Source: Chlorobiaceae bacterium
GTDB lineage: Bacteria; Bacteroidota; Chlorobiia; Chlorobiales; Chlorobiaceae
Assembly (NCBI GenBank): GCA_013334485.1
Contig: JAAXXL010000013.1
Span: 1 to 50,426, forward strand
DNA: 50,426 nt
Reading direction: 5' to 3'
This document shows, one piece after another, positions 1 through 50,299 of the stretch (position 1 is its first letter; each line of letters starts with the position of its first letter). Made by a program: the position numbers and the translations under genes. The notes beneath the pieces are model-generated. The model was not told the origin of the DNA. It made no database searches and saw nothing but the letters and a program-made list of their open reading frames with translations.

Positions 1-3000
1 CCTTTACCTCACCACTCAAGGTACTGCCTATCCTTAGCCCGGTGATGCCCTGAATAGCATATGCGCTTCCTGTTCCGGCACTCACTGCCACTTTCGATCC
101 TTCCGAGATATCTCCCGTGATAGTGATCGCTGAACCCGAATAGATGCCATAAGCGCTCGATGTCCCCGCTGTTGCAAGCAGCTCTCCTTCGATTGACCCG
201 CGAATTGACAGATCTCCACTATTGGCACTGAGCGCATAGGCTCGTGTCGTTCCAGTTGTTGCTGTAATGGATGATAAGGCAGTAATATCACCATTGAGAT
301 CAAGCGTGGTGGTCGAGTAGATACCATATGCTCCCAACTCTCCTGCTGTGGCTCGTATGCTGCTGGTACGGTTGATCCCTCCATAAATCGATACCTTATT
401 CCCGCTGATTCCATAAGCATCCTCCTTGCCAGCAGTGGCAACTATTTCCCCTCCGACTCCTGTTACGCCACCACTCTGACCTATCGTCACACTGCCGGCC
501 GAATAGATGCCATAGGCCATCGATCCACTTATACTTTCTGCCGTTATGCTTCCGCTTTCAGCGATTCCACCAGCAATAGTGAGACTCTCCTCAACACTAC
601 TGCCCCCGTACAATCCGTAAACCCGCCCACCGCTTGTTGTTGTTTTCGCTATTACCTCACCACTGAGTGCACCGCCAATCCTTAGCCCGGTAATGCCCTG
701 AATAGCATATGCGCTTCCTGTTCCAGCACTCACTGCCACTTTCGATCCTTCTGAGAGATCTCCGACAATGCTTACCGACTGACCTGAATAGATCCCGTAT
801 GCTCCAGAGCTGCCTGCCGTAGCCTGAACAAGGCCCATCACCGAGCCGCTGAGTGTCAGATCTCCACCGTCAGCACAGAGAGCATAGGCATTTGTTGTGC
901 CTGTTGATGCAGCAATAGATGATGAGGTAGCAATGTCACCATCTATTTTCATGGCTATGCCCGAATACAAGGCATATCCTTTACTTCCCGATTTGGCTGT
1001 TGAACTGATATTTCCGATAACATCACCATTGAGATCAAGTGTGGTAGCCGAGTATATTCCAAACGCTCCTGATTCTCCGGCAGTTGAACTGATACTTCCG
1101 ATACCGCTTAACCCTCCATAAATTGAGACTGTGTTCCCGCTGATTCCATAGGCATCATCCTTGCCCGCTGATGTTGTGATGGCTCCTCTGATTCCTATCA
1201 CTCCTCTACTCTCACCTATCGTCACACTTCCTGCTGAATAGATACCATATGCCGTTGATCCGCTGACACCTTCGGCTGTAATGCTCCCTGTGTCACCAAT
1301 ACCTCCCGTTATACTCAGACTGTTCTCCGCTACACTACCTCCATACAACCCGTAGACCCTGCCTCCGCTTGTTGTCGTTTTGGCTATTACCTCGCCACTT
1401 AAGGCACCGTCAATCGTCAGCCCTGTGACACCATGAATTGCATAGGCACTTCCTGTTCCGGCACTCGCTTTCACTCTCGCACCCTCCGATATATCTCCCG
1501 TGATATTCACCATCTTACCGGAATAGATCCCATAAGCGCTCGATGTGCCTGCTGTCGCGAGAAGCTCTCCTCCGATTGAACCGCTGATCGTCAGATCTCC
1601 ACCGTCAGCACAAAGCCCGTAGGCTCTTGTTGTGCCTGTTGATGCGGCAATAGATGATGATGCAGCAATATCTCCGGTCATATCAAACGTTGTAGCCGAG
1701 TAAATCCCATAGGCTCCCGACTCTTCTGCCGTTGCGCTGATACTTCCTGTAGCGCTTAACCCTCCATGAATTGATACTGTGTTCCCGCTAATTCCATAGG
1801 CATCATCCAACCCTGCATTGGCAACTATCGCTCCGCTGATTCCTGTCGTGCCTCCACTCCGTCCTATCGTCACGTTGCCTGCTGAATAAATACCATAAGC
1901 CGTCGATCCACTAAAACCCTCCGCCCTGATGGTGCCGCTTTCTGTGATTCCTCCCGTAATGGTGAGACTTTCCTCAGCACTACTGCCCCCGTACAATCCA
2001 TAAACCCGGCCACCGCTTGTTGTGGTTTTCGCCTTTACCTCACCACCGATACATCCACTGACAGTCAATCCAGAGAAAGCATGAATAGCGTGAGCTATTC
2101 CGGTTCCTGCTTCGGCACTGATCAACGAACCTTCTGTTATATCTCCCGTTATGTTGAGCGAAGCTCCCGAATAAATTCCATACGCACTTGTCGTACCTGT
2201 TGCAGCATGCAGAGTTCCCCTCACTGATCCGTTTATGACAAGTGAACCATCCTCTGCAAAGATCGCATACGCTTGCGAGCTACCGGCTGAGGCCGTAATT
2301 GATGATGATGCAGCAATATCTCCGGTAATGGTAAGCGAGGTACCGGCATTAAGGGCATAAGCCGTTCCCCCGGTCGTGGCAGTTGCTCCGATAGTTCCAC
2401 GAATATCACCGGTGATAGCAAGCTCTGTTGTCGCATCAAAAGCGAACGCATTATTCCGGCCCGCAGTTGCTGTGACACTGCCGGTTTCACCTATTCCGCC
2501 ATACACCGTAACCGTATTGCCACGAAGAGCATAAGCCGTATCATATCCTGCAGTTGCCGATACCCTGCCACTGATACCCGTTGTCTGACCGCTTTGGCCG
2601 ATAATCACATCGCCGCCGGAATAGATACCATAAACCGTACTGTCCGAATTATTGACGGGGTTGACTGCTGTAGCTGAAACAATGGCTGTTGAAGCGATTC
2701 CTCCTGCGAGTCGCAGTGTCGTTGTTTTCGTCATCCCGCTTCTGATCCCGTAGGCGGTTCCTCCAGTTGTGGCATTTGCCGAAATATTACCGCACAGTTT
2801 GTCGGATACTGAAATATTCTTAGCTGAATAGAGCCCGTACACACTACCGAGAGCAGTTGAAGAGATAGTTGCTTCTTCGGCAATCGTTCCTGATATAGAG
2901 AGTGATCCTATAGCATATATTCCGTAAGCCGAACTGTTTGTTGAAGTGTTGAGCAAATTGCTTCCAAGATTATCTGTTAGCGTGAGATTTTCCGAAGAGT

Positions 3001-3394
3001 AGAGTGTTGCACTTCCTGCATTGCTGCTCTGCATACTGAGCGTGAGCAGGTTATCTGACAAAGAGAGTCCGATGTTGGACGACAGCTTCACTATTCTCGC
3101 ATTTGATGCCGAAGTCACGTTTTTTACCGTTAATGCCCTCCCGCCGTTATTGATAACCATAGAAACCGGCTTTTTGATAAATTCCGGAGTTGAAGAGAGG
3201 GTAATTTCAGGATTAGCGGACGTAAATTTTATCATGTGAGGTCCCTCATCAGCACGGTTCAGATCCAGAATCGCCTGGTTCATGGTTCCAACACCGCTGT
3301 CGCCGGAATTGATGACAGTAAAAACCGCGCCCTCAGCTCTGCAATCAGAGATTACAGCAAGAAGGAGTAGTATCGATAATTTTCGTTTGTTCAT
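1..3394 (-). CDS. Giant secreted repeat protein (adhesin/autotransporter-like), N-terminal part
   Basis: An open frame runs from an ATG at 3394 to the left edge without a stop, giving at least 1,131 residues; the C-terminus lies outside the window. Residues 1-20 look like a signal peptide (basic MNKRK start, then a leucine-rich core). Next comes a segment around VINSGDSGVGTMNQAILDLN, resembling the start of many surface β-helix proteins. The rest is Gly/Ser/Thr/Ala-rich β-type repeats built on the motif [A/V]-Y-[G/A]-[I/L]-Y-[S/G], seen about 30 times at roughly 25-31 residue spacing, and grouped into near-identical units of about 217 residues. Such proteins are usually exported and surface-exposed. 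No β-barrel or anchor domain is visible here, so the secretion route is unknown. It is transcribed divergently from the NADH dehydrogenase gene across about 245 bp. Confidence 0.85.
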   Translation of the reverse strand, partial: MNKRKLSILLLLAVISDCRAEGAVFTVINSGDSGVGTMNQAILDLNRADEGPHMIKFTSANPEITLSSTPEFIKKPVSMVINNGGRALTVKNVTSASNARIVKLSSNIGLSLSDNLLTLSMQSSNAGSATLYSSENLTLTDNLGSNLLNTSTNSSAYGIYAIGSLSISGTIAEEATISSTALGSVYGLYSAKNISVSDKLCGNISANATTGGTAYGIRSGMTKTTTLRLAGGIASTAIVSATAVNPVNNSDSTVYGIYSGGDVIIGQSGQTTGISGRVSATAGYDTAYALRGNTVTVYGGIGETGSVTATAGRNNAFAFDATTELAITGDIRGTIGATATTGGTAYALNAGTSLTITGDIAASSSITASAGSSQAYAIFAEDGSLVINGSVRGTLHAATGTTSAYGIYSGASLNITGDITEGSLISAEAGTGIAHAIHAFSGLTVSGCIGGEVKAKTTTSGGRVYGLYGGSSAEESLTITGGITESGTIRAEGFSGSTAYGIYSAGNVTIGRSGGTTGISGAIVANAGLDDAYGISGNTVSIHGGLSATGSISATAEESGAYGIYSATTFDMTGDIAASSSIAASTGTTRAYGLCADGGDLTISGSIGGELLATAGTSSAYGIYSGKMVNITGDISEGARVKASAGTGSAYAIHGVTGLTIDGALSGEVIAKTTTSGGRVYGLYGGSVAENSLSITGGIGDTGSITAEGVSGSTAYGIYSAGSVTIGESRGVIGIRGAITTSAGKDDAYGISGNTVSIYGGLSGIGSISSTAGESGAFGIYSATTLDLNGDVIGNISSTAKSGSKGYALYSGIAMKIDGDIATSSSIAASTGTTNAYALCADGGDLTLSGSVMGLVQATAGSSGAYGIYSGQSVSIVGDLSEGSKVAVSAGTGSAYAIQGITGLRIGGALSGEVIAKTTTSGGRVYGLYGGSSVEESLTIAGGIAESGSITAESISGSMAYGIYSAGSVTIGQSGGVTGVGGEIVATAGKEDAYGISGNKVSIYGGINRTSSIRATAGELGAYGIYSTTTLDLNGDITALSSITATTGTTRAYALSANSGDLSIRGSIEGELLATAGTSSAYGIYSGSAITITGDISEGSKVAVSAGTGSAYAIQGITGLRIGSTLSGEVK
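2..2032 (-). repeat. Three tandem long units (about 650, 733 and 648 bp) inside the giant repeat gene
   Basis: The same segment, with minor substitutions, begins at about 2, 652, 1385 and 2033 on the plus strand (a 'cctcaccact' or similar block followed by a 'cctgaatagcatatgcgctt'-like block). This defines three consecutive units of about 650, 733 and 648 bp. The middle unit is longer by about 84 bp, which equals one 28-residue mini-repeat. Beyond 2033 the repeats continue but are more diverged. All lengths are multiples of three within the accuracy of reading, so the frame is preserved. Confidence 0.85.
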
Positions 3395-3639
3395 GGTAGT
3401 GCCGGAGTGCCGGATTACCGAAACAGTTTGCACCCTGAACAACAGGCGCGAAAAATGATACTCCTTTTTTACTTAAAATATTACACTTTTATAACAAAAA
3501 CCCAAATACAAGCGAACGGTTAGCTCAACCAATCAATCCCGCTTTCATCAGCAGACTGCGGAGTTTTATCTCTTTTTTATTACTTTCAAACGGGTTACAG
3601 AATGGAGAGAATGGATACTAAAAGAAGAGAGCGGATTTC

Positions 3640-11418: not shown

Positions 11419-11453
11419 CCTCCCCCCCCCACCACCTTTTTTGCGACAAAAAA

Positions 11454-40242: not shown

Positions 40243-41421
40243 TTATTTTGTAACACACATACTCATCACCTCACGCATTACAGTGCAAGTCCTATCTATA
40301 TCTTCCTGCCTAAGGGTTGGATGAACAAGAAACATAAGAGCTTGCTCGCCAAGCTCCCTGGCAACCGGCAACCGTTCTGCAGGACGCCAGCCAGTGTTAT
40401 CAAAAGCTTTTTCAAGGTAAATCTCCGGACACACTCCAGTGTAACAGGGAACTCCCCTTGCATTAATTTCATCCATAATCCTGTCTCTGTTCCAACCCTC
40501 TTTCAACATTGAGGGCTCAACAAATACATAGCACTTATAGGCGGCATGCTCAACCCATAAAGGAATAAAAGGAACCTTTAATCCTTTTATAGATGCGGCT
40601 GCATTCCAGATAGCTGATGCATTCTTCTGACGCTTTGCGGTCCAATCCGCCATTCGCGTCAACTGAATCCGACCAAGTACGGCCTGCATCTCCGTCATCC
40701 TGAAATTAGTACCGAACGAATCATGAAGCCAGCGAAATCCCGGCTGATGACTCCGGTTATATACCGCATCCCAGCTTTTACCGTGATCTTTATAGGCCCA
40801 CATTCTTGACCACAAGGCTTTATCACTGGTTGTCACCATGCCACCCTCTCCACCAGTCGTCATAATTTTATCCTGGCAAAAACTCCATGCACCAATATGG
40901 CCAATGGTACCAACCGACCTGCCCTTATATTTCGCACCGTGAGCTTGAGCACAATCCTCAACCACCTTGAGGCCATGTTGCTTCACAAGATACATAATTG
41001 GATCCATATCACAGGGATAACCAACAAGATGAACCGGTATGACAGCCTTGGTTTTTGATGTTATCCTGGCCGCAATACTCTCAGATGTCAGAGTCATAGA
41101 ATTGCTGTCAACATCGGCTATAACCGGAACCGCACCCCGCATTACCACAGCACTTGCTGATGCAAGGAAAGTATAACTCGGAACAATCACCTCATCCCCT
41201 ATCCCGATCTCAAGAGCCTCTAGCGCAAGTTCCAGCGCTGCCGTTCCATTCGTTAGAGCTATCGCATGCCGGCTCCCAGCCCATTCAGCAAACTCTTTCT
41301 CAAATTCACGACACTCCTGACCAGTCCAGTAATTAACCTTGTTGGACAAGAGAACCCGGGAAACAGCATCAGCTTCTTCCTGGGTAAATAAGGGCCAAGG
41401 GGGAAATGAGGTATTAAGCAT
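40243..41421 (-). CDS. DegT/DnrJ/EryC1-type sugar aminotransferase (PglE/VioA-like)
   Basis: A PLP aminotransferase of about 392 residues that typically aminates a 4-keto-6-deoxy NDP-sugar. The PLP lysine K185 is in GAWSFCQDKIMTTGGEGG, and D156 is in VVEDCAQAHGA. It is the last gene of the right-hand operon. I choose the ATG at 41421 (MLNTSFPPWP), 13 nt after the acpS stop. The frame is open upstream to an ATG at 41466 inside acpS, and a run of ten T residues on the coding strand (41425-41434) lies between. The product sugar is unknown; bacillosamine- or viosamine-like 4-amino sugars are typical. Confidence 0.82.
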   Translation of the reverse strand: MLNTSFPPWPLFTQEEADAVSRVLLSNKVNYWTGQECREFEKEFAEWAGSRHAIALTNGTAALELALEALEIGIGDEVIVPSYTFLASASAVVMRGAVPVIADVDSNSMTLTSESIAARITSKTKAVIPVHLVGYPCDMDPIMYLVKQHGLKVVEDCAQAHGAKYKGRSVGTIGHIGAWSFCQDKIMTTGGEGGMVTTSDKALWSRMWAYKDHGKSWDAVYNRSHQPGFRWLHDSFGTNFRMTEMQAVLGRIQLTRMADWTAKRQKNASAIWNAAASIKGLKVPFIPLWVEHAAYKCYVFVEPSMLKEGWNRDRIMDEINARGVPCYTGVCPEIYLEKAFDNTGWRPAERLPVARELGEQALMFLVHPTLRQEDIDRTCTVMREVMSMCVTK

Positions 41422-41434
41422 ATCAAAAAAAAAA

Positions 41435-41824
41435 TCAAATAATTGAATTCTGCGCATCAGGGCCAACAGCTACGACCACAATAGCCATAGCGGTTTTCTT
41501 GCTATGTGACAAGCTGACCCGAATAGCAAGATTCAATTTTGCTACTTGCGGATCTGAGATAACAAAAAAAGGTTTTCCTTCTTTGTCATTAGCAATTTCA
41601 ATCTGACGGAGATCTACTTTGCAAAAAGGATAAAGAGCTTTCAACAACGCCTCTTTAGCACACCAACGTGCAGCATAGTGAGCCTCGGGATTTTTGAACG
41701 ATTTACAATACAGGTGTTCTGCTTCAGTAAACAGTTTATGCTGAGCTCCCGATTCCAGTTTTGAGAGCATATTATGCCAGCGATCTATATCTTCACAATC
41801 AATTCCAACATTGAAATTTTCCAT
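41435..41824 (-). CDS. acpS: Holo-ACP synthase-like phosphopantetheinyl transferase
   Basis: A 129-residue AcpS-type enzyme that would attach phosphopantetheine to the serine of ACPs. VGIDCEDIDRW carries the metal-binding Asp, FTEAEHLYC and YAARWCAKEALLKAL carry the second acidic motif, and VSLSHSKKTAMAIVV ends the fold. Its place inside an operon with two ACPs suggests a dedicated enzyme, while a housekeeping AcpS probably exists elsewhere. The stop at 41435 lies 13 nt before the downstream aminotransferase start. Confidence 0.88.
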   Translation of the reverse strand: MENFNVGIDCEDIDRWHNMLSKLESGAQHKLFTEAEHLYCKSFKNPEAHYAARWCAKEALLKALYPFCKVDLRQIEIANDKEGKPFFVISDPQVAKLNLAIRVSLSHSKKTAMAIVVVAVGPDAQNSII

Positions 41825-41839
41825 GTTTAATATTGCTGA

Positions 41840-43984
41840 TTAAACATCTATTCCGCGAATAAATTCGCACACAGGCAATACTAAATCATTTATATGAAAA
41901 ACGAAACAATTTGACCTATCACCCGGTTGAAAACCAAGATCAAGAAACATATTTTGGACAAGACTGTTTTTTGCCGTATGAATATATTCACCAAATACCT
42001 CTGTGACGCCTTCCTTGACGGCCTCAATCAGCAATGTAGCCAGCATATATTTTTCCATATGACGTCCAAGCACGCGACAACTCATCAACCAGGTATCGAT
42101 ATGCCAGGAAGTACCACTCTTTTTAACAAGAATTACCCCAATCAAGCCATGATCCCCAAATTTATCTGTCAATCGGAACCATCTTGTCCACCAATCCGGA
42201 GATTCAGCCTTGCTTCGAATCTGCTCCTCACTGTATCGCCTGGAAGTCAGATTGAACTGGTTGGTTTTATTTATCAATTGGGTCGAACGAGTAAGGGTTA
42301 TAGAATCGATTGATCCGCTCTGTGCAACCATTTCAAGGCCAGAAAGGAACTCTTCCACTGTTGCTGCACTTGTCTCGAACTCCTGTCGAACAATATTTGA
42401 CTGGTAACTCTTATGTCGCTCAGCATCCTCTTCCGTCAGCACAATAGACTCAAAATACATGCCATGATCCAGGGCCTCGAGCATCTCCCAGGGTTTGCTG
42501 CCACACTCAGGAACAATTACATCGGGCAAACGGGAACGAACCCATGCCCGTTCAAGCGGATTATCATCCAAAAACACAAAACTATCAAGTCCTAAAGATA
42601 ATTTCGTTGCCATCTCCTGAATATTCGAAGCTTTATCCTGCCAGTTAGCAATAAACAGAACAAAATCATCCATTCGAAGAATCATGGAATCATGTTCCCT
42701 GAAAGGCAACTCCGCATCATCAAGGTTATTTTTCGAACAAACCGCAAGTAAAACACCCCGCCCCTTTAGCTCCTTCACATAATGCTGAAGATCAAGATGG
42801 CACTCTCCTTCCGGAGATGGGGGACCAATAACGATACCTGATAAACCATCTTCACCAATCACTCCGCCCCAGAGAGTATTGTCGAGATCAAGCACAAGCA
42901 CCTTGGCTGAATAACCAAAAGCAGCACGCAAATTGGCCGTAAGATGATCGGCCAGTAGTGGAAGTGCTTCCGGAGAAGGATAGAGTCTGCTGGAATACCA
43001 GTCAGCCTCCGAATGAAATTGATGACCAAGACGCAGAGCAACCTTGACCATAGAACAAAACGAGACACTGGGAGGCAGATTTTCGGCAAGCATTGCATTA
43101 ATGGTAGCAATCATGCGAACACGTCCGCCGGGCTGAGTCTCCTCCAATCCTCCCCATGAAGCATATAAAGGAAGATCAAAACCAACCTGAATCAGATGGC
43201 AAGGATTCCGCTTCAGGAGCACATCCCATAGAGTACGCAAATCTTCAGTGAATTTTTCCGCAGTTCCCTTCTGCGACAAAGGAGACAAGCCTATATCGCG
43301 ATGATTGAGCAGAAGGATTACCGCCTGGGGATTGAAAGCATAGAGGGTCGAAGTGGGGTCCAAAATATCTTGCCGGAAGTTAGAAAATCCTCCTTCATGC
43401 ATCACAACATGAATTCCATCCCTGAAACAGAGCGCCTGAATTACAGAAGCAAGAAACGAGGTTGTAGAACTGCCAAGCAAGGCAAGCCGGATTGTTTGAC
43501 GCGCCTGCCATTGATCAGAGTTAAGTATTTTTTTGAGTAACACCTCGCATCGGACCATAAATGAATAGGGGGGAGCCAACGACAAGGCAAGTTTCAAAGA
43601 ATAAGCTGCCCTGGAAAATTGCCTGGTACGTACCAATAACCTGACCAGATGCAACAAGAGAAAAGGATCCACTTTCGACATGGATTTTATAAGAGCATCG
43701 AAAAGCTGTATCGCATCCCTGTAGTTTCCCTGCCGTACAAGAAACCGTGCATACAAATAGCGAGGCAAACTTCGCTCATCAAGTGCAAGTGAATTGATCC
43801 AATCATGCAACGGCAGGGAAGATACCTCAATCCGGGCTTCCAGCACCATATCCAACGCTTCTGCTGCATCAAGCGAAAAAGAGCCCCCATTTTTCTGCAA
43901 TAAACCAGGAAGCAGTTCAACAAGCCCCTGGTCATCATGCTGACTGCATACATATTCAATCAACTCTCTCGTTAACATGGGCAT
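41840..43984 (-). CDS. FkbH-like HAD-superfamily protein with N-terminal extension
   Basis: A large protein of about 714 residues. The HAD domain starts at VLVLDLDNTLWGGVIGEDG (the first Asp is the nucleophile; about 362-380), with VCSKNN and FLDDNPLERAWVR downstream. FkbH homologs load a glyceryl unit from 1,3-bisphosphoglycerate onto an ACP. An N-terminal helical region (about 70-155) and an SGNH-like block (LLGSSTTSFLA near 170) precede the HAD; an acetyltransferase-like C-terminus (about 580-714) follows. I prefer the ATG at 43984, 7 nt after the ACP stop; a start at 44017 would overlap the ACP gene. The target ACP is probably the adjacent one. Confidence 0.82.
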   Translation of the reverse strand: MPMLTRELIEYVCSQHDDQGLVELLPGLLQKNGGSFSLDAAEALDMVLEARIEVSSLPLHDWINSLALDERSLPRYLYARFLVRQGNYRDAIQLFDALIKSMSKVDPFLLLHLVRLLVRTRQFSRAAYSLKLALSLAPPYSFMVRCEVLLKKILNSDQWQARQTIRLALLGSSTTSFLASVIQALCFRDGIHVVMHEGGFSNFRQDILDPTSTLYAFNPQAVILLLNHRDIGLSPLSQKGTAEKFTEDLRTLWDVLLKRNPCHLIQVGFDLPLYASWGGLEETQPGGRVRMIATINAMLAENLPPSVSFCSMVKVALRLGHQFHSEADWYSSRLYPSPEALPLLADHLTANLRAAFGYSAKVLVLDLDNTLWGGVIGEDGLSGIVIGPPSPEGECHLDLQHYVKELKGRGVLLAVCSKNNLDDAELPFREHDSMILRMDDFVLFIANWQDKASNIQEMATKLSLGLDSFVFLDDNPLERAWVRSRLPDVIVPECGSKPWEMLEALDHGMYFESIVLTEEDAERHKSYQSNIVRQEFETSAATVEEFLSGLEMVAQSGSIDSITLTRSTQLINKTNQFNLTSRRYSEEQIRSKAESPDWWTRWFRLTDKFGDHGLIGVILVKKSGTSWHIDTWLMSCRVLGRHMEKYMLATLLIEAVKEGVTEVFGEYIHTAKNSLVQNMFLDLGFQPGDRSNCFVFHINDLVLPVCEFIRGIDV

Positions 43985-43991
43985 CTGCTGA

Positions 43992-44246
43992 TTACCGATC
44001 GCAAAAATGGCGCTCAATTGCTTTCATAAAACCTGCAACAGATTTTACGGATGAAACCTCTTCGGTAGACATTCTGACTGCAAATTCTTCTTCTATTGCC
44101 AACACCAGCTTGATATGAGCAACTGAATCCCAATCCTCGATATCCTCTCGCATGGTTGATGGTGCAATATGCATGGTATCATCATCGAATATCTCTCTGA
44201 ATATGGTACGCAACTTAATTATTACATCACTGTTTAAAAGTGGCAT
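43992..44246 (-). CDS. Acyl carrier protein, first
   Basis: An 84-residue ACP with the phosphopantetheine-accepting serine S41 in EDWDSVAHIKLVLAIEEEF. Helical four-bundle layout and acidic character fit. It is 7 nt from the FkbH gene, so it is the likely carrier of the glyceryl group. Its C-terminal tail ERHFCDR is unusual in containing Cys and His. Confidence 0.88.
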   Translation of the reverse strand: MPLLNSDVIIKLRTIFREIFDDDTMHIAPSTMREDIEDWDSVAHIKLVLAIEEEFAVRMSTEEVSSVKSVAGFMKAIERHFCDR

Positions 44247-44264
44247 ATTTTAATAAATTTTGAA

Positions 44265-45689
44265 TTACTTAAGCTGACGGATAATGTCAAGCATAACAGG
44301 CACAGGATCCATGTTATCAACACGAACTATGCTTGCTGTCTGATCGGTATCGAGTCTTGGCAACCTTACAAACAGCACATCTGTCTCTTTTTCCGTCTTA
44401 TCCAGAAACTGACAAACTGATTCTCCGGCAGCCTTCGCTGCGGCATATTCACCCATATCCAAAGGTATTTCTGTAACAGCAACAGAAGATGGATAAAAAA
44501 CTTTTCGCGGTGCGACACCTCTTGCTTTAAGAGCTTGAAAGGTTGCCAGAAAACCTGTTACGTAATAATGGCAGAAAGTATCAAACAGTGCCGCAGAAAA
44601 TTTTCCGCGAGAGCCGTCAAAAATAAATGGTGTAGCAAAATAATATAGATGAGTCGGGTTCCAGTGATCTCCGATACGCGATGCGATATCCTCCTTTGGG
44701 GCAACTATATCCAGGGCCACGGCTTCTGCTGTTCCTCCACCTGACTTTATTTCATCTACCACCCTGTTAGCATCCTCTGCTCCCCGATGATAAGTGATGC
44801 GTACATCAGCACCTCCTAATGCGAGAAGTTTTGCCGTCACCTCACCAAGCCCGCGTGAACCACCAATGACAAGTGCTCGCTGTCCGGAAAGATCCGGACA
44901 GACAACTCGTTCTGAGAGTTCAACATAACTTGACTGAATTTTCTGAGCAGGTCGATAAAATACACTCAGTTTTCCGACTACGCCAGAGCCAGACACCTCA
45001 ACTATCATACGAGAAAAGCGATCGTCAAAATCCGAAACGCGAAACAACAGCTCCGGCAAAGTGAAGTGATTGAAAGAAAATTTCATCAATAAACCGGAAA
45101 AGACAGAGTTCATACCGGGGCACTTCATCCCCACAATACGGGTGGTTGCGAGCAACACTGCAAACTGTACAGGAGAAAGATATAAGGGTATAAAGGAAAA
45201 CAGCCGATCAACCGCTTCACCATCAAGATGCAAAGCAACCCTGCCGGACAAATCACCAAGAGCATTAACTGGAACTCGCTCACACTCCTCCCGTTGAGGA
45301 GTACTAAAAAGTAAATTTGCTTTAGCCGGATTCACGGCAGCAGCTCCGGAAACATATGTAGCATGTATCACCGCTACCCGTAATCCACCGACAGTCAGAC
45401 GGATCTTGACCCCTTCATCACAACAATCACTGAGAACATAACACTCTACAGTTTCCGATACAGCTACAGTAGCAGTGAAATCCGCCTTTAGATCACACAA
45501 CTCAACTGTTTCAGCCTTCCCCTGCAGCCAAACATCAAAGGCCCAAAGCAGGAGGTGAATACCATGCACCACCTGTCGACCAAACATGAGCCGTCTGGCA
45601 TATAAGGCGTCAAGATGCATTGGATTGTAATCACCAGAAAGCTTAGCAAAGAGCTCCTGATCCTGCTGTGTGAAGATTTTTTGTATCAT
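44265..45689 (-). CDS. MaoC-like dehydratase fused to a short-chain dehydrogenase
   Basis: A protein of about 474 residues with two enzyme parts. Residues 1-120 form a MaoC-type hotdog dehydratase: SGDYNPMHLD carries the catalytic Asp20 and His25, and GRQVVHGIHL follows. Residues about 150-250 look like a second hotdog half. Residues 270-474 are an SDR with GGSRGLGEVTAKLLA (nucleotide loop), a serine at 401/402 and Y415/K419 in GEYAAAKAAGE. Such a fusion could reduce a 3-ketoacyl-ACP and dehydrate the 3-hydroxy product, or do the two steps on different substrates. Start at 45689, because GTGAGG lies about 6 nt upstream; a start at 45710 is possible. Confidence 0.78.
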   Translation of the reverse strand: MIQKIFTQQDQELFAKLSGDYNPMHLDALYARRLMFGRQVVHGIHLLLWAFDVWLQGKAETVELCDLKADFTATVAVSETVECYVLSDCCDEGVKIRLTVGGLRVAVIHATYVSGAAAVNPAKANLLFSTPQREECERVPVNALGDLSGRVALHLDGEAVDRLFSFIPLYLSPVQFAVLLATTRIVGMKCPGMNSVFSGLLMKFSFNHFTLPELLFRVSDFDDRFSRMIVEVSGSGVVGKLSVFYRPAQKIQSSYVELSERVVCPDLSGQRALVIGGSRGLGEVTAKLLALGGADVRITYHRGAEDANRVVDEIKSGGGTAEAVALDIVAPKEDIASRIGDHWNPTHLYYFATPFIFDGSRGKFSAALFDTFCHYYVTGFLATFQALKARGVAPRKVFYPSSVAVTEIPLDMGEYAAAKAAGESVCQFLDKTEKETDVLFVRLPRLDTDQTASIVRVDNMDPVPVMLDIIRQLK

Positions 45690-45735
45690 TCGCGCCTCAC
45701 TATCCTGCACTTACTCCATATCTTTAGAACAACCA

Positions 45736-46479
45736 TTACCATGCTGATAAGCCACCATCTACAACCAGCGATGTTCCTGTAATCCATCGAGCATCAGATG
45801 AAACAAGAAAGGCAATCGCATCAGCAACTTCTTCAGGCTTACCGATCCCCAACAAATGATTTGCGGCAATCTCATCCTGTTGTTCCTGTGAAAGCAATTT
45901 CAGCCACCCTTCACTCATCGGCGTTTCAACAACACCGGCAACAACAACATTGACCCTAATTTTTTTCTTAACCAATTCGACAGCTGCTACTCGAGCAGCA
46001 GATACAAGAGCGCCTTTCGCACATGCATAGGAAGTAAAGCCTGCTGTTCCCCGATTAGCCGCAACCGAAGAAAGCCAGACAATACCGGCGCCATCAGGAC
46101 TGACGGCTTTCGACAAGGCTTTAGTGGTATTTACAGCACTAACTACATTGGCACTAAAACCGGCTAATAAATTTTCCGTTTTTAAAAGAGAAAACGGACG
46201 GATCTCATGCAAACCTGCACAGCAAACTCCGCCATCATATCCTCCCTGTTCCTTGCCATATTTTATAATCAGACTTAACTGCGATTCATCTGAAATATCA
46301 GCAACAATCGCATGATGTTCAGAACCTTCAAGGCTGTTCAACGCATGCTGCAGCCGCTCAGCATTTCTCCCGATACCAACAATACGGGCACCTTCACTCG
46401 CAAGACGCTGTGCAGTTGATAATCCGATTCCGGATGTCACACCGACAATAAGAACGAGTTTATTTTCAAATCGATTCAT
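45736..46479 (-). CDS. Short-chain dehydrogenase/reductase (FabG-like)
   Basis: A 247-residue SDR with the nucleotide loop GVTSGIG (13-19), S137/S138 and Y151/K155 (YACAK) as catalytic residues, and a C-terminal VVDGG tail. FabG enzymes reduce 3-ketoacyl-ACP; sugar-modifying SDRs are an alternative. The usual NAG motif reads CCAG here. The start codon shares one base with the KAS III stop (TAATG), so the two are translated together, which favours an acyl-ACP substrate. Confidence 0.85.
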   Translation of the reverse strand: MNRFENKLVLIVGVTSGIGLSTAQRLASEGARIVGIGRNAERLQHALNSLEGSEHHAIVADISDESQLSLIIKYGKEQGGYDGGVCCAGLHEIRPFSLLKTENLLAGFSANVVSAVNTTKALSKAVSPDGAGIVWLSSVAANRGTAGFTSYACAKGALVSAARVAAVELVKKKIRVNVVVAGVVETPMSEGWLKLLSQEQQDEIAANHLLGIGKPEEVADAIAFLVSSDARWITGTSLVVDGGLSAW

Positions 46480-47564
46480 TATTCTGCCTCATCAATTGAG
46501 GGAAACAGTACATCAACAACACCAGGAACAGCCGCATCGGCATCATCAGGCCACTTTACCACAACAACACCCCATGACAGTCCTCCACCGAATGCACATA
46601 AAAGCGTACGGCTTCCTGGTTTTATAACACCTTCACGCCATGCCTCTGCCAGCAGCGAAGGCAGAGAAGCTCCACTACTGTTGCCAACTTCTTCCATATA
46701 ATAAAATCTCTTCTCTGGCGGAACACTTAACGCCCGATAAATTAAATCAACCATGGTTTTATTAGCCTGATGAAGTAAAACCATATCAAAATCGTCAATG
46801 GTTCTTTGCTGCTTGATCAAGGCGTTTTTCAAAAGATCAGTTATCTTGTAGACAACAAAGTGAAATATAGCAGGGCCGTCCATATAGAGTTGCTCAAGAG
46901 TACGGATACATCCATCTTCATCCGTTTTCTCAATTTTAGTTTCCTGACTGCCTGGCATTCTTGCGCCGCCAGCAGGAACAAGTAACCGGTCAAACTTCGT
47001 TCCGTCTGTACCGATTTCAATGTACTCAATACCGCCACAACCTGATTCTGCTGCTTCTATAAGTGCCGCGGTTCCGGCATCGCCATGCAAGGTCACCAGA
47101 CCTCTGTCCATTGGGTGTATCAATGTTGATAGAGCATCTCCATTCAAAACAAGTGCTCTTTTAGCGGTTCCGGCAACAATCATCGAATGGGCCACTTGCA
47201 GAGCATGAATAAAGGAACTGCAAGCTTGATTTATATCAAATGTGCAACAATTCTCAGAAAGCCCAAGTCTTCCGTGCAAGACTGAACTGGTCGCAGGTAT
47301 TCGATAATCAGGTGTCTGGGATACAAAAATCAAAAGATCAACAGAGAATAAATCAATCTTGATATGCTCAAGAAGTCTCTTTGCTGCGGCAAAGGCAAGA
47401 TCAGAAGCGCACTGACCAGGAAATACTACCCGGCGTTCGCGAATGCCGGACATTTTGGTAATGGACTTTACAGCTTTTTCTCCAAAACGTTCCTCTAATT
47501 GACTCTGTGTTACGCAATTTGTTGGCAAAGCATGAGCAATTGCCGTAATTTTAGATGTCTTCAT
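46479..47564 (-). CDS. β-Ketoacyl-ACP synthase III-like condensing enzyme
   Basis: A 361-residue thiolase-fold enzyme with the catalytic triad intact: C115 in DINQACSSFIHAL, H265 in LLHQANKTMVDLI, N295 in VGNSSGASLPSL. KAS III enzymes join an acyl starter with malonyl-ACP; some secondary-metabolism relatives join two carriers or form esters. The C-terminal about 30 residues (after SWGVVVVKW) form an extra acidic tail. It lies between an ACP gene (16-nt gap) and the SDR (1-nt overlap). Confidence 0.9.
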   Translation of the reverse strand: MKTSKITAIAHALPTNCVTQSQLEERFGEKAVKSITKMSGIRERRVVFPGQCASDLAFAAAKRLLEHIKIDLFSVDLLIFVSQTPDYRIPATSSVLHGRLGLSENCCTFDINQACSSFIHALQVAHSMIVAGTAKRALVLNGDALSTLIHPMDRGLVTLHGDAGTAALIEAAESGCGGIEYIEIGTDGTKFDRLLVPAGGARMPGSQETKIEKTDEDGCIRTLEQLYMDGPAIFHFVVYKITDLLKNALIKQQRTIDDFDMVLLHQANKTMVDLIYRALSVPPEKRFYYMEEVGNSSGASLPSLLAEAWREGVIKPGSRTLLCAFGGGLSWGVVVVKWPDDADAAVPGVVDVLFPSIDEAE

Positions 47565-47854: not shown

Positions 47855-48505
47855 TTACTTGAGTATCATTGCCGGTACTCCATTAACCGTTTCGCCTGCT
47901 TTTACAGAACGAATTACCTGAGAATTAGCACCAACAATAGCTTGCGCGCCAATTTCCTTCCCCGGTAAAACAGATGCATTAGAACCAATCAAAGCTCCGC
48001 AGCATACTCTGCATGCGCCATTAATTTGAGCACCTGGACACAACTGACTATAGTCTTCAAGAACTGCATCATGACCAATTGTAACCCGAATATTGATTAT
48101 AACATGTTTTCCAACAAAAGCATTCGGACACAATATCGATCCCGCACCGATGTAACTGCCTTCACCAATAGATACATTTCTCGCAAATATGACTGATGGA
48201 TGAATCAAGCAAGCTGCTTTCCATCCAAATTTCTCTAGTCTTGTAACAACATTATTTCTTATCGTATTATTTCCAATTGCACAAAAAAACCATATTTCAC
48301 CTCCATCATACCGTTCGGAAATTTCCTCAGGAGTTCCAATGACACTATAACCATAGAACATCAGGTTTTTTTTTGATTTATTATCGTCTGCATAACCAAT
48401 AATATTCCACTGTTCGGATTCCGAACTCAAACGATTCATCTCTTCCAGTACCCATATCGCCTCTGTTCCAAAACCACCAGCCCCGACAATTACAATATTT
48501 TTCAA
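47855..48505 (-). CDS. NeuD/PglD-family sugar O/N-acyltransferase
   Basis: A 216-residue protein with an N-terminal Rossmann-like PglD_N domain (VGAGGFGTEAIWVLEEM) and a C-terminal left-handed β-helix made of hexapeptide repeats (about 103-205). The catalytic histidine is H145 in TIGHDAVL. Family members transfer acetyl from acetyl-CoA to the 4-amino group of UDP-sugars, as in bacillosamine synthesis. In this operon the acyl donor could instead be an acyl-ACP. The start codon overlaps the stop of the sugar transferase gene by 4 nt. Confidence 0.86.
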   Translation of the reverse strand: MKNIVIVGAGGFGTEAIWVLEEMNRLSSESEQWNIIGYADDNKSKKNLMFYGYSVIGTPEEISERYDGGEIWFFCAIGNNTIRNNVVTRLEKFGWKAACLIHPSVIFARNVSIGEGSYIGAGSILCPNAFVGKHVIINIRVTIGHDAVLEDYSQLCPGAQINGACRVCCGALIGSNASVLPGKEIGAQAIVGANSQVIRSVKAGETVNGVPAMILK

Positions 48506-49116
48506 TCTATAACTCCTGATGACGATCCTTTAAAAGCTTCCATTGTCGCCTGCCCTTCCTGGCTGATACCTGAACGTTTAAAAACTTTGATAAAGGTAAT
48601 CCCAAGAATTTTAATATCCAGCCACAAAGACCAATTATCCACATACCAGACATCAAGCCTGAACTTCTCCTCCCAGGTGATCGTATTGCGGCCATTAATC
48701 TGAGCCCATCCCGTAATACCCGGCTTGACTTCATGACGGCGATTCTGCTCTTCAGAATACAACGGGAGATATTCCATCAACAAAGGACGAGGACCGACAA
48801 GGCTCATTTCACCTTTAAGAACATTTAAAAGAGCTGGGAATTCGTCAAGACTTGTTGAACGCAGAATACTACCCAAGCGGGTTAATCGTTCATTATCCGG
48901 CAGTAAATTACCTGAAATATCTTTTAAATTAGCCATTGTTCTGAATTTGAAAATATTAAAAGGCTTTTTATTAATACCAGGCCTTTTGTTGTAAAATAAC
49001 ACCGGAGTACCATCAATCAATAAAATAAGAATTGATATTATAACATATACTGGCAGCAAGACGATTATACCAGGTAAAGTAAAGGTAATATCGAATATTC
49101 TTTTAATAATTTTCAC
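48502..49116 (-). CDS. PglC-like phosphoglycosyl transferase (undecaprenyl-phosphate sugar transferase)
   Basis: A 204-residue monotopic enzyme that starts glycan assembly by moving a sugar phosphate from a UDP-sugar to undecaprenyl phosphate. One N-terminal re-entrant hydrophobic segment (about 13-34), the KFRTM block, the catalytic D91-E92 pair in STSLDEFPALLN, and SLVGPRPLL are diagnostic. The short form matches PglC rather than the five-helix WbaP/WcaJ types. Upstream, about 205 nt of very AT-rich DNA separate it from the epimerase. Confidence 0.9.
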   Translation of the reverse strand: MKIIKRIFDITFTLPGIIVLLPVYVIISILILLIDGTPVLFYNKRPGINKKPFNIFKFRTMANLKDISGNLLPDNERLTRLGSILRSTSLDEFPALLNVLKGEMSLVGPRPLLMEYLPLYSEEQNRRHEVKPGITGWAQINGRNTITWEEKFRLDVWYVDNWSLWLDIKILGITFIKVFKRSGISQEGQATMEAFKGSSSGVID

Positions 49117-49321: not shown

Positions 49322-50299
49322 TCATTCTGATTTATTTCTCTCACAATACCACTTCACAGTTTCCTGGACTCCATCATTCATCGAAAAAGGTAATTTATTG
49401 CAAATTAATTTCATTGGGTTTATATCGAAATCAGGTTCTGACAACACATTACGAAGCCTGAATGAATTAAATGGAAATCCTTTAAAACCAATAACATTCA
49501 AAATATCCCCAAACATGGCTATAGATTTAGCAATAATAACAGGAATAGTCTTTATATTGCCAGCATTAAAATTTCTTTGGAAGGCGTTTGCCCATTCCTG
49601 CAATACAATAGGCTCATAATCTGCCATATATAATACTTTTCGATGTATTGATTGACTGGGCGCCTTCAAAAGACAGCAATATTGATAAGCAGTATTACCA
49701 ACAAATCCATAATATTTTTTTAACGGTTGATACCCAATATGGTAATATTGGCTTTTATTAATCATTTTCAAGAATCTTTGATAATGATCACTCATCCCTG
49801 GCCCCCATATCGTTGTAGGCCTGACTATACACCATGTCACCCCCCCCCCATCAGTAGACCTTACTATTTTTTCACCTAACACTTTGCTCTCTCCATAAAG
49901 ATTAACAGGAGCAAAATCGGTATCATTTTTGGGTTTATATTTTACATGACATACTAATTGAGACGAAGTAAATATACATCTCTTTATTGATGGGTTTTCC
50001 TGAATAACAGAAATAAGATTGTTAACGCCACTTATATTTACATCATAACCATTTAAGTCATTGTTTTCAGTTAAATCTGCGCGAGCTGCAAGATGTATAA
50101 TTGATGATGGGTTAAATCTATTTATTATATTATTTAATTTATTCTTGTCCAGTAGATCGCATATTTCATGCTTTTGTGTTATATTCTCAGGTTTTTTTAT
50201 ATCTATACTAAGAACGTCATATCCACTTTTTATAAGTTCAACATAAACTTTACTACCAATAAAACCTGAACCCCCTGTAAGAATAACTTTATCATTCAT
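49322..50299 (-). CDS. NAD-dependent epimerase/dehydratase (extended SDR)
   Basis: A 325-residue nucleotide-sugar enzyme. TGGSGFIGS (8-16) is the NAD loop, TSS lies near 111-113, and Y135/K139 (YGESK) are the catalytic pair. RPTTIWGPG is the usual block near 160. The C-terminal part (LKKYYGFVGNTA, then an LNVIGFKGFPFNSFRL-type segment) resembles GDP/UDP-sugar 4-reductases or epimerases such as WbpV/Gne types; the exact reaction cannot be read. Codon use is strongly AT-rich. A run of ten G residues lies inside the gene (coding Asp150-Val154). It lies 8 nt after the preceding glycosyltransferase stop. Confidence 0.85.
   Translation of the reverse strand: MNDKVILTGGSGFIGSKVYVELIKSGYDVLSIDIKKPENITQKHEICDLLDKNKLNNIINRFNPSSIIHLAARADLTENNDLNGYDVNISGVNNLISVIQENPSIKRCIFTSSQLVCHVKYKPKNDTDFAPVNLYGESKVLGEKIVRSTDGGGVTWCIVRPTTIWGPGMSDHYQRFLKMINKSQYYHIGYQPLKKYYGFVGNTAYQYCCLLKAPSQSIHRKVLYMADYEPIVLQEWANAFQRNFNAGNIKTIPVIIAKSIAMFGDILNVIGFKGFPFNSFRLRNVLSEPDFDINPMKLICNKLPFSMNDGVQETVKWYCERNKSE
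49840..49849 (-). repeat. Poly-G tract (10 G on the coding strand) inside the epimerase gene
   Basis: Ten consecutive C residues on the plus strand (49840-49849) read as GGG GGG GGG G on the coding strand, encoding Gly151-153 and the first base of Val154. Homopolymeric G runs of this length in surface-glycan genes are known sites of slipped-strand frameshifting in other bacteria; a single-base change would disrupt the last half of the protein. Confidence 0.85.

Follow-up and report, generated by a model that had tools for sequence, protein, structure and literature searches.

A ten-guanine tract in a Chlorobiaceae sugar epimerase gene, probably a coding by-product of a conserved glycine turn

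The run of ten guanines that lies midway along a sugar epimerase gene of a Chlorobiaceae bacterium is probably a by-product of protein coding, situated within a conserved tri-glycine turn, and not a switch of gene expression. This reading is favoured by the intact reading frame, by glycines that are conserved where the homopolymer is not, by the lack of any genome-wide excess of such runs and by comparable tracts in housekeeping genes. The window, by which is meant the whole stretch of 50,426 nucleotides that was analysed (contig JAAXXL010000013.1), had been proposed in a preliminary description to contain a phase-variable surface-glycan gene, a proposal that finds no support given that the glycines are conserved without a homopolymer, that G runs are not in excess and that housekeeping runs of ten are frequent. 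As matters stand the tract is an ordinary coincidence of coding, and what it teaches is that an in-frame run of ten guanines is, in this genus, no predictor of phase variation.

The epimerase gene and the outcome of slippage

The tract is carried by a gene on the minus strand (49322-50299) for a 325-residue NAD-dependent sugar epimerase/dehydratase of the extended SDR type. The class of NDP-sugar epimerase first given to it is borne out by the Pfam Epimerase family (PF01370), which matches with an E-value of 8.9e-28 and 97.7 bits against a curated cut-off of 20.9. The signature motifs TGxxGxxG (TGGSGFIG, residues 8-15) and YxxxK (YGESK, residues 135-139) are both conserved in the alignment. 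The AlphaFold model, made from an input of 21 sequences, has a mean pLDDT of 93.6 and, when compared with the PDB, matches UDP-glucose 4-epimerases and WbmH of Bordetella across the whole fold with TM values of about 0.7-0.77. The protein therefore shares with extended SDR sugar epimerases/dehydratases (PF01370; PDB 4zrm and 2q1w, the latter WbmH) the Rossmann motif, the YxxxK motif and the full fold, but it differs from them in belonging to a divergent subfamily whose turn reads GGG[VK][ST]WC. Among the NCBIfam equivalog models, none scores above its cut-off for this protein. The GC content around the gene is about 31%, against 46% for the window.

Downstream of the epimerase, on the same strand, are a sugar-phosphate transferase of the undecaprenyl-phosphate glycosylphosphotransferase type (48502-49116; Bac_transf, PF02397, E 2.8e-63), for which the best NCBIfam model, EPS_sugtrans, falls below its cut-off, and a NeuD/PglD-type sugar acetyltransferase (47855-48505; TIGR03570, 194 bits with a cut-off of 161). 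From these two neighbours, which agree with the glycan setting initially described, we may fairly infer a surface-glycan role for the epimerase locus.

Direct reading of the forward strand places ten cytosines at 49840-49849, within catgtcaCCCCCCCCCCatcagtag. On the minus strand the sequence across the tract is ACT GAT GGG GGG GGG GTG ACA TGG, encoding T-D-G-G-G-V-T-W, such that the ten guanines occupy nucleotides 451-460 of the open reading frame (codons 151-154) and comprise the GGG codons of Gly151, Gly152 and Gly153 together with the first base of Val154 (GTG), with Asp150 preceding them. In the AlphaFold model the tri-glycine forms a tight turn (residues 150-153) between the helix that carries YxxxK (134-148) and the following strand (155-161). 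With coordinates computed from codon numbers, the YGESK catalytic motif lies 5' of the tract (49883-49897, minus strand) and the TWCIVRPTTIWGPG segment, a strand with a substrate-side motif (residues 155-168; 49796-49837, minus strand), lies directly 3' of it.

The consequences of a change in tract length can be computed. Loss of one base gives a protein of 153 residues that stops right after the glycines, gain of one gives 170 residues, gain of two 154 and loss of two 169, while a change of three bases in either direction keeps the frame. As the YGESK motif is upstream of the tract it is kept in the truncated proteins, and both the minus-one and the plus-one products retain the nucleotide-binding half along with it; the TWCIVRPTTIWGPG segment is lost with either change, and with it the RPTTIWGP strand and the entire C-terminal substrate half. 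The presence of the tract in the middle of the coding strand, its reading frame and truncation near residue 154 upon a change of a single base were thus correctly described at the outset.

Could such a tract act as a switch? Under translational phase variation, slipped-strand mispairing would take G10 to G9 or G11, yielding proteins of 153 or 170 residues, with the reversible loss of a surface-glycan sugar. We regard this as unlikely here, even though several features of the locus would suit it. The length, base and position of the tract match those of known contingency tracts (PMC6321876, PMC3025981), the off-frames soon meet a stop, and the gene sits in a glycan locus. G/C homopolymers of at least 7-8 within a coding region or promoter mark such loci, the cut-off of 7 or more being taken from PMC6321876, and at this tract of ten one base more or less destroys a product of 325 residues. 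Likewise, 9-10 is the usual length of real Campylobacter poly-G switches (PMC6321876), which, like the placing of the only mid-gene G10 of the window in a locus of surface-glycan type, speaks against the by-product reading. With the poly-G loci of Campylobacter jejuni and Helicobacter (PMC6321876, PMC3025981, PMC2823697) the tract shares a coding-strand G10, a gene of surface-glycan type and truncation by plus or minus one base. It differs from them in that its codons match glycines that are conserved in homopolymer-free homologs, that it is known here from one assembled sequence, and that its genome has neither an excess of runs nor a second recognisable glycan gene with a tract.

Conserved glycines, unconserved homopolymer

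Whether selection acts on the homopolymer or on the residues that it encodes is largely answered by the five nearest homologs, in which the residues rather than the homopolymer are kept. When these are aligned with the window epimerase (STDGGGVTWCIVRPT), four show Gly-Gly-Gly in exactly the same place, and in none of the five is there a homopolymer. L063 (47% identity; DKDGGGVSWCIVRPT) uses GGT GGA GGG, the Anaerolineales MAG sequence L070 (48%; KHNGGGKSWCIVRPT) GGT GGT GGC, L354 (42%; EEKGGGVTWCLTRPT) GGT GGC GGG and L356 (41%; EEDGGGVTWCITRPT) GGC GGC GGC; the fifth, L355 (41%; EERGGDVTWCLTRPT), has Gly-Gly-Asp, with glycine codons GGA GGG. It had been suggested beforehand that conservation of the three glycines in all homologs would argue for a fixed coding feature. 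That expectation holds for four of the five closest relatives, all with non-homopolymeric codons, and does not extend to the more distant ones, where other residues occupy the turn and G runs in the region never exceed six. The tri-glycine is thus a property of the epimerase subfamily, and the homopolymer is confined to the window gene. Since the glycines are conserved in near homologs, seven of the ten guanines are fixed by the protein (Gly-Gly-Gly-Val), leaving just three silent third positions to be explained, and this conservation in the absence of a homopolymer weighs directly against a switch.

A search of 61 family genomes turned up no ortholog of the epimerase, an absence that fits acquisition of the gene from outside. 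Single-sequence searches of genome contigs and viral contigs found no epimerase homolog, a profile search of contigs did retrieve homologs, and collections of phages and plasmids held distant homologs only, the best at 37%.

The by-product reading can be laid out as follows. The subfamily carries, after its YxxxK helix and before the beta strand that follows, a turn of three conserved glycines; in the window gene alone, all three happen to be written GGG and are followed by GTG, producing G10. With the frame intact, the epimerase is expected at full length. The tract is probably a slippage-prone mutational hotspot, and occasional frameshift mutants might be expected from it with no selected switch. 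We infer both the lack of selection for switching and any rate of slippage.

Chance expectation in the gene, the genome and the genus

How surprising the tract is depends upon the scale at which it is viewed. In the epimerase gene 5 of the 19 other glycine codons are GGG, giving a chance of about 0.018 for three in a row, and synonymous-codon permutation of this gene alone produces a run of ten or more in 3.5% of cases. The window as a whole uses GGG for 11% of its glycines, which reduces the chance to 0.0015, and permutation of its 40 coding sequences predicts 0.04 runs of ten or more where one is observed, both values counting against the by-product reading. The number of G8 runs in the window was equalled in 1 of 100 dinucleotide shuffles. 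Across the genome, by comparison with expectation from composition, 18 runs are at least eight long (34 expected), 5 at least nine (7.9 expected) and 2 at least ten (1.8 expected). The tract is thus locally striking and genomically ordinary, and such runs are no commoner in the genome than chance would provide. Phase-variable Campylobacter shows the reverse of what is seen here: poly-G tracts exceed chance there, and the median C. jejuni genome has about 20 (PMC6321876). None of the other 17 runs of eight or more falls in a recognisable glycan gene, as judged by open frames and sequence rather than by a database search for each run; they lie between genes, at the edges of genes or within genes of other kinds. 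That the tract is the sole one in a recognisable glycan gene of a genome with no excess of runs is a further argument against switching. The longest run of the genome, a G11 (L194, G000:C35:51481-51491), either opens an MltG-like gene or directly precedes it, and could affect its translation start.

The survey of the genus points in the same direction. About 148 tracts of ten or more are present in 65 genomes, from 0 to 8 per genome, where about 110-230 would be expected from composition, according to the G content. Of these tracts, 144 were classified with their flanks. The sorting of tracts into coding and non-coding by codon usage missed the window's own low-GC epimerase gene, and low-GC glycan genes are therefore probably under-counted. 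In-frame G10 or G11 runs, listed with four drafts (G333, G285, G303 and G311) left out, are found in genes for NDH-2, DAHP synthase, RecG, TonB, a nucleotidyltransferase, TauE, a methyltransferase, Omp85/BamA, an AAA ATPase, ETF, a LysM lytic transglycosylase, HtrA, SppA and CheB/CheR. NDH-2 offers an exact parallel, its motif VIVGGGPTG being written with a G10 in one relative (L197) and with GGC GGA GGA in the window's own copy. Runs of this sort arise where a protein has two or three glycines, in genes for which switching is not expected, and their frequency in housekeeping genes lowers the case for a switch in the epimerase. Such runs resemble the window tract in having GGG glycine codons next to a neighbouring G and an intact frame; they differ in lying in housekeeping genes, while the window's lies in a glycan gene.

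In the four drafts set aside, many G10 runs put ordinary genes out of frame, a pattern that suggests homopolymer read errors and calls for care with the gene calls there. Might the window tract be an artefact of the same kind, its true length not ten or its run interrupted? Homopolymers are prone to error, the end of the contig is 577 bases away from the tract and the genome is a draft of 130 contigs. Yet exactly ten bases keep the frame and give the Gly3-Val seen in homologs, and the remaining long G runs of the genome, unlike those of the four drafts, leave ordinary genes unbroken. Because a length of ten restores the sequence seen in homologs, an error of assembly or base calling is very improbable.

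Longer tracts in related genomes and other features of the window

Seemingly genuine poly-G contingency candidates do exist in other genomes of the genus, which favours a switch and counts against the by-product reading. Most of these candidate tracts are longer than the G10 of the window. Two acyltransferase-3 genes have in-frame tracts, of G15 (L200/L324, G044:C19) and of G14 (L283, G053:C72), the latter beside a UDP-GlcNAc 2-epimerase-like gene; a third (L253/L338, G060:C206) has an in-frame G10 in the corresponding position, and in an ortholog 86% identical to the first (L325, G311:C30) the tract site reads G8 and then an A. AT3 acyltransferases elsewhere are known phase-variable modifiers of glycans (PMC9558356), and these acyltransferase-3 tracts are promising candidates for phase-variable glycan acylation by way of poly-G. 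Three methyltransferase genes are split out of frame at their tracts, of G12 (L185, G007:C6), G15 (L186, G025:C2) and G11 (L191, G037:C1), as is a glycosyltransferase gene (L288, G353:C114) by a G13 in an 81%-complete draft; these split genes resemble the OFF state of a contingency locus. Methyltransferases have glycine-rich motifs, and part of their tracts may also be coincidence. A length of 11-15 combined with a broken frame gives the look of a contingency locus, and the frame breaks cannot be attributed to conserved glycines. The G11-G15 runs in acyltransferase-3 and methyltransferase genes of the genus look far more switch-like than the window's G10. They are consequently the better place in which to seek switching.

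Open full texts yielded no on-topic paper on phase variation, either for Chlorobium or for green sulfur bacteria. If switching did occur, a mechanism best known from host-adapted pathogens would extend to the green sulfur bacteria, where switching of surface glycans could bear on resistance to phages and on the aggregation of cells. The fullest form of the idea would make the G10 a working surface-glycan slippage switch in an anaerobic, free-living phototroph, one instance of a broader and as yet undescribed reliance of the genus on poly-G contingency loci, to which the longer acyltransferase-3 and methyltransferase tracts of its relatives would also belong, with phages perhaps as the driving force; this we consider unlikely.

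Several other features of the window were noted. Neither tandem repeats nor RNA families were found in it. A (bacterio)chlorophyll synthase is encoded, scoring above its cut-off, and taken together with the remaining genes it points to a green sulfur bacterium of the Chlorobium type. The second long run of the window is a C9 on the forward strand (11422-11430), in the intergenic space separating the end of a DnaG-like primase gene from a GlyA-like gene. Beside the glycan genes, the region 40243-47564 encodes a PseC-like aminotransferase, an AcpS-like protein, an FkbH-domain protein, a MaoC/SDR-like fusion, an SDR and a FabH-type ketosynthase, an unusual cluster that suggests the assembly of an acyl group on a carrier protein and its attachment to an amino sugar. 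Finally, at 2-3442, running off the contig end, is a highly repetitive, secreted-looking protein rich in Ser, Gly and Ala, with repeats like SGSITAEGVSGSTAYGIYSAG, which looks like an adhesin or an autotransporter passenger.
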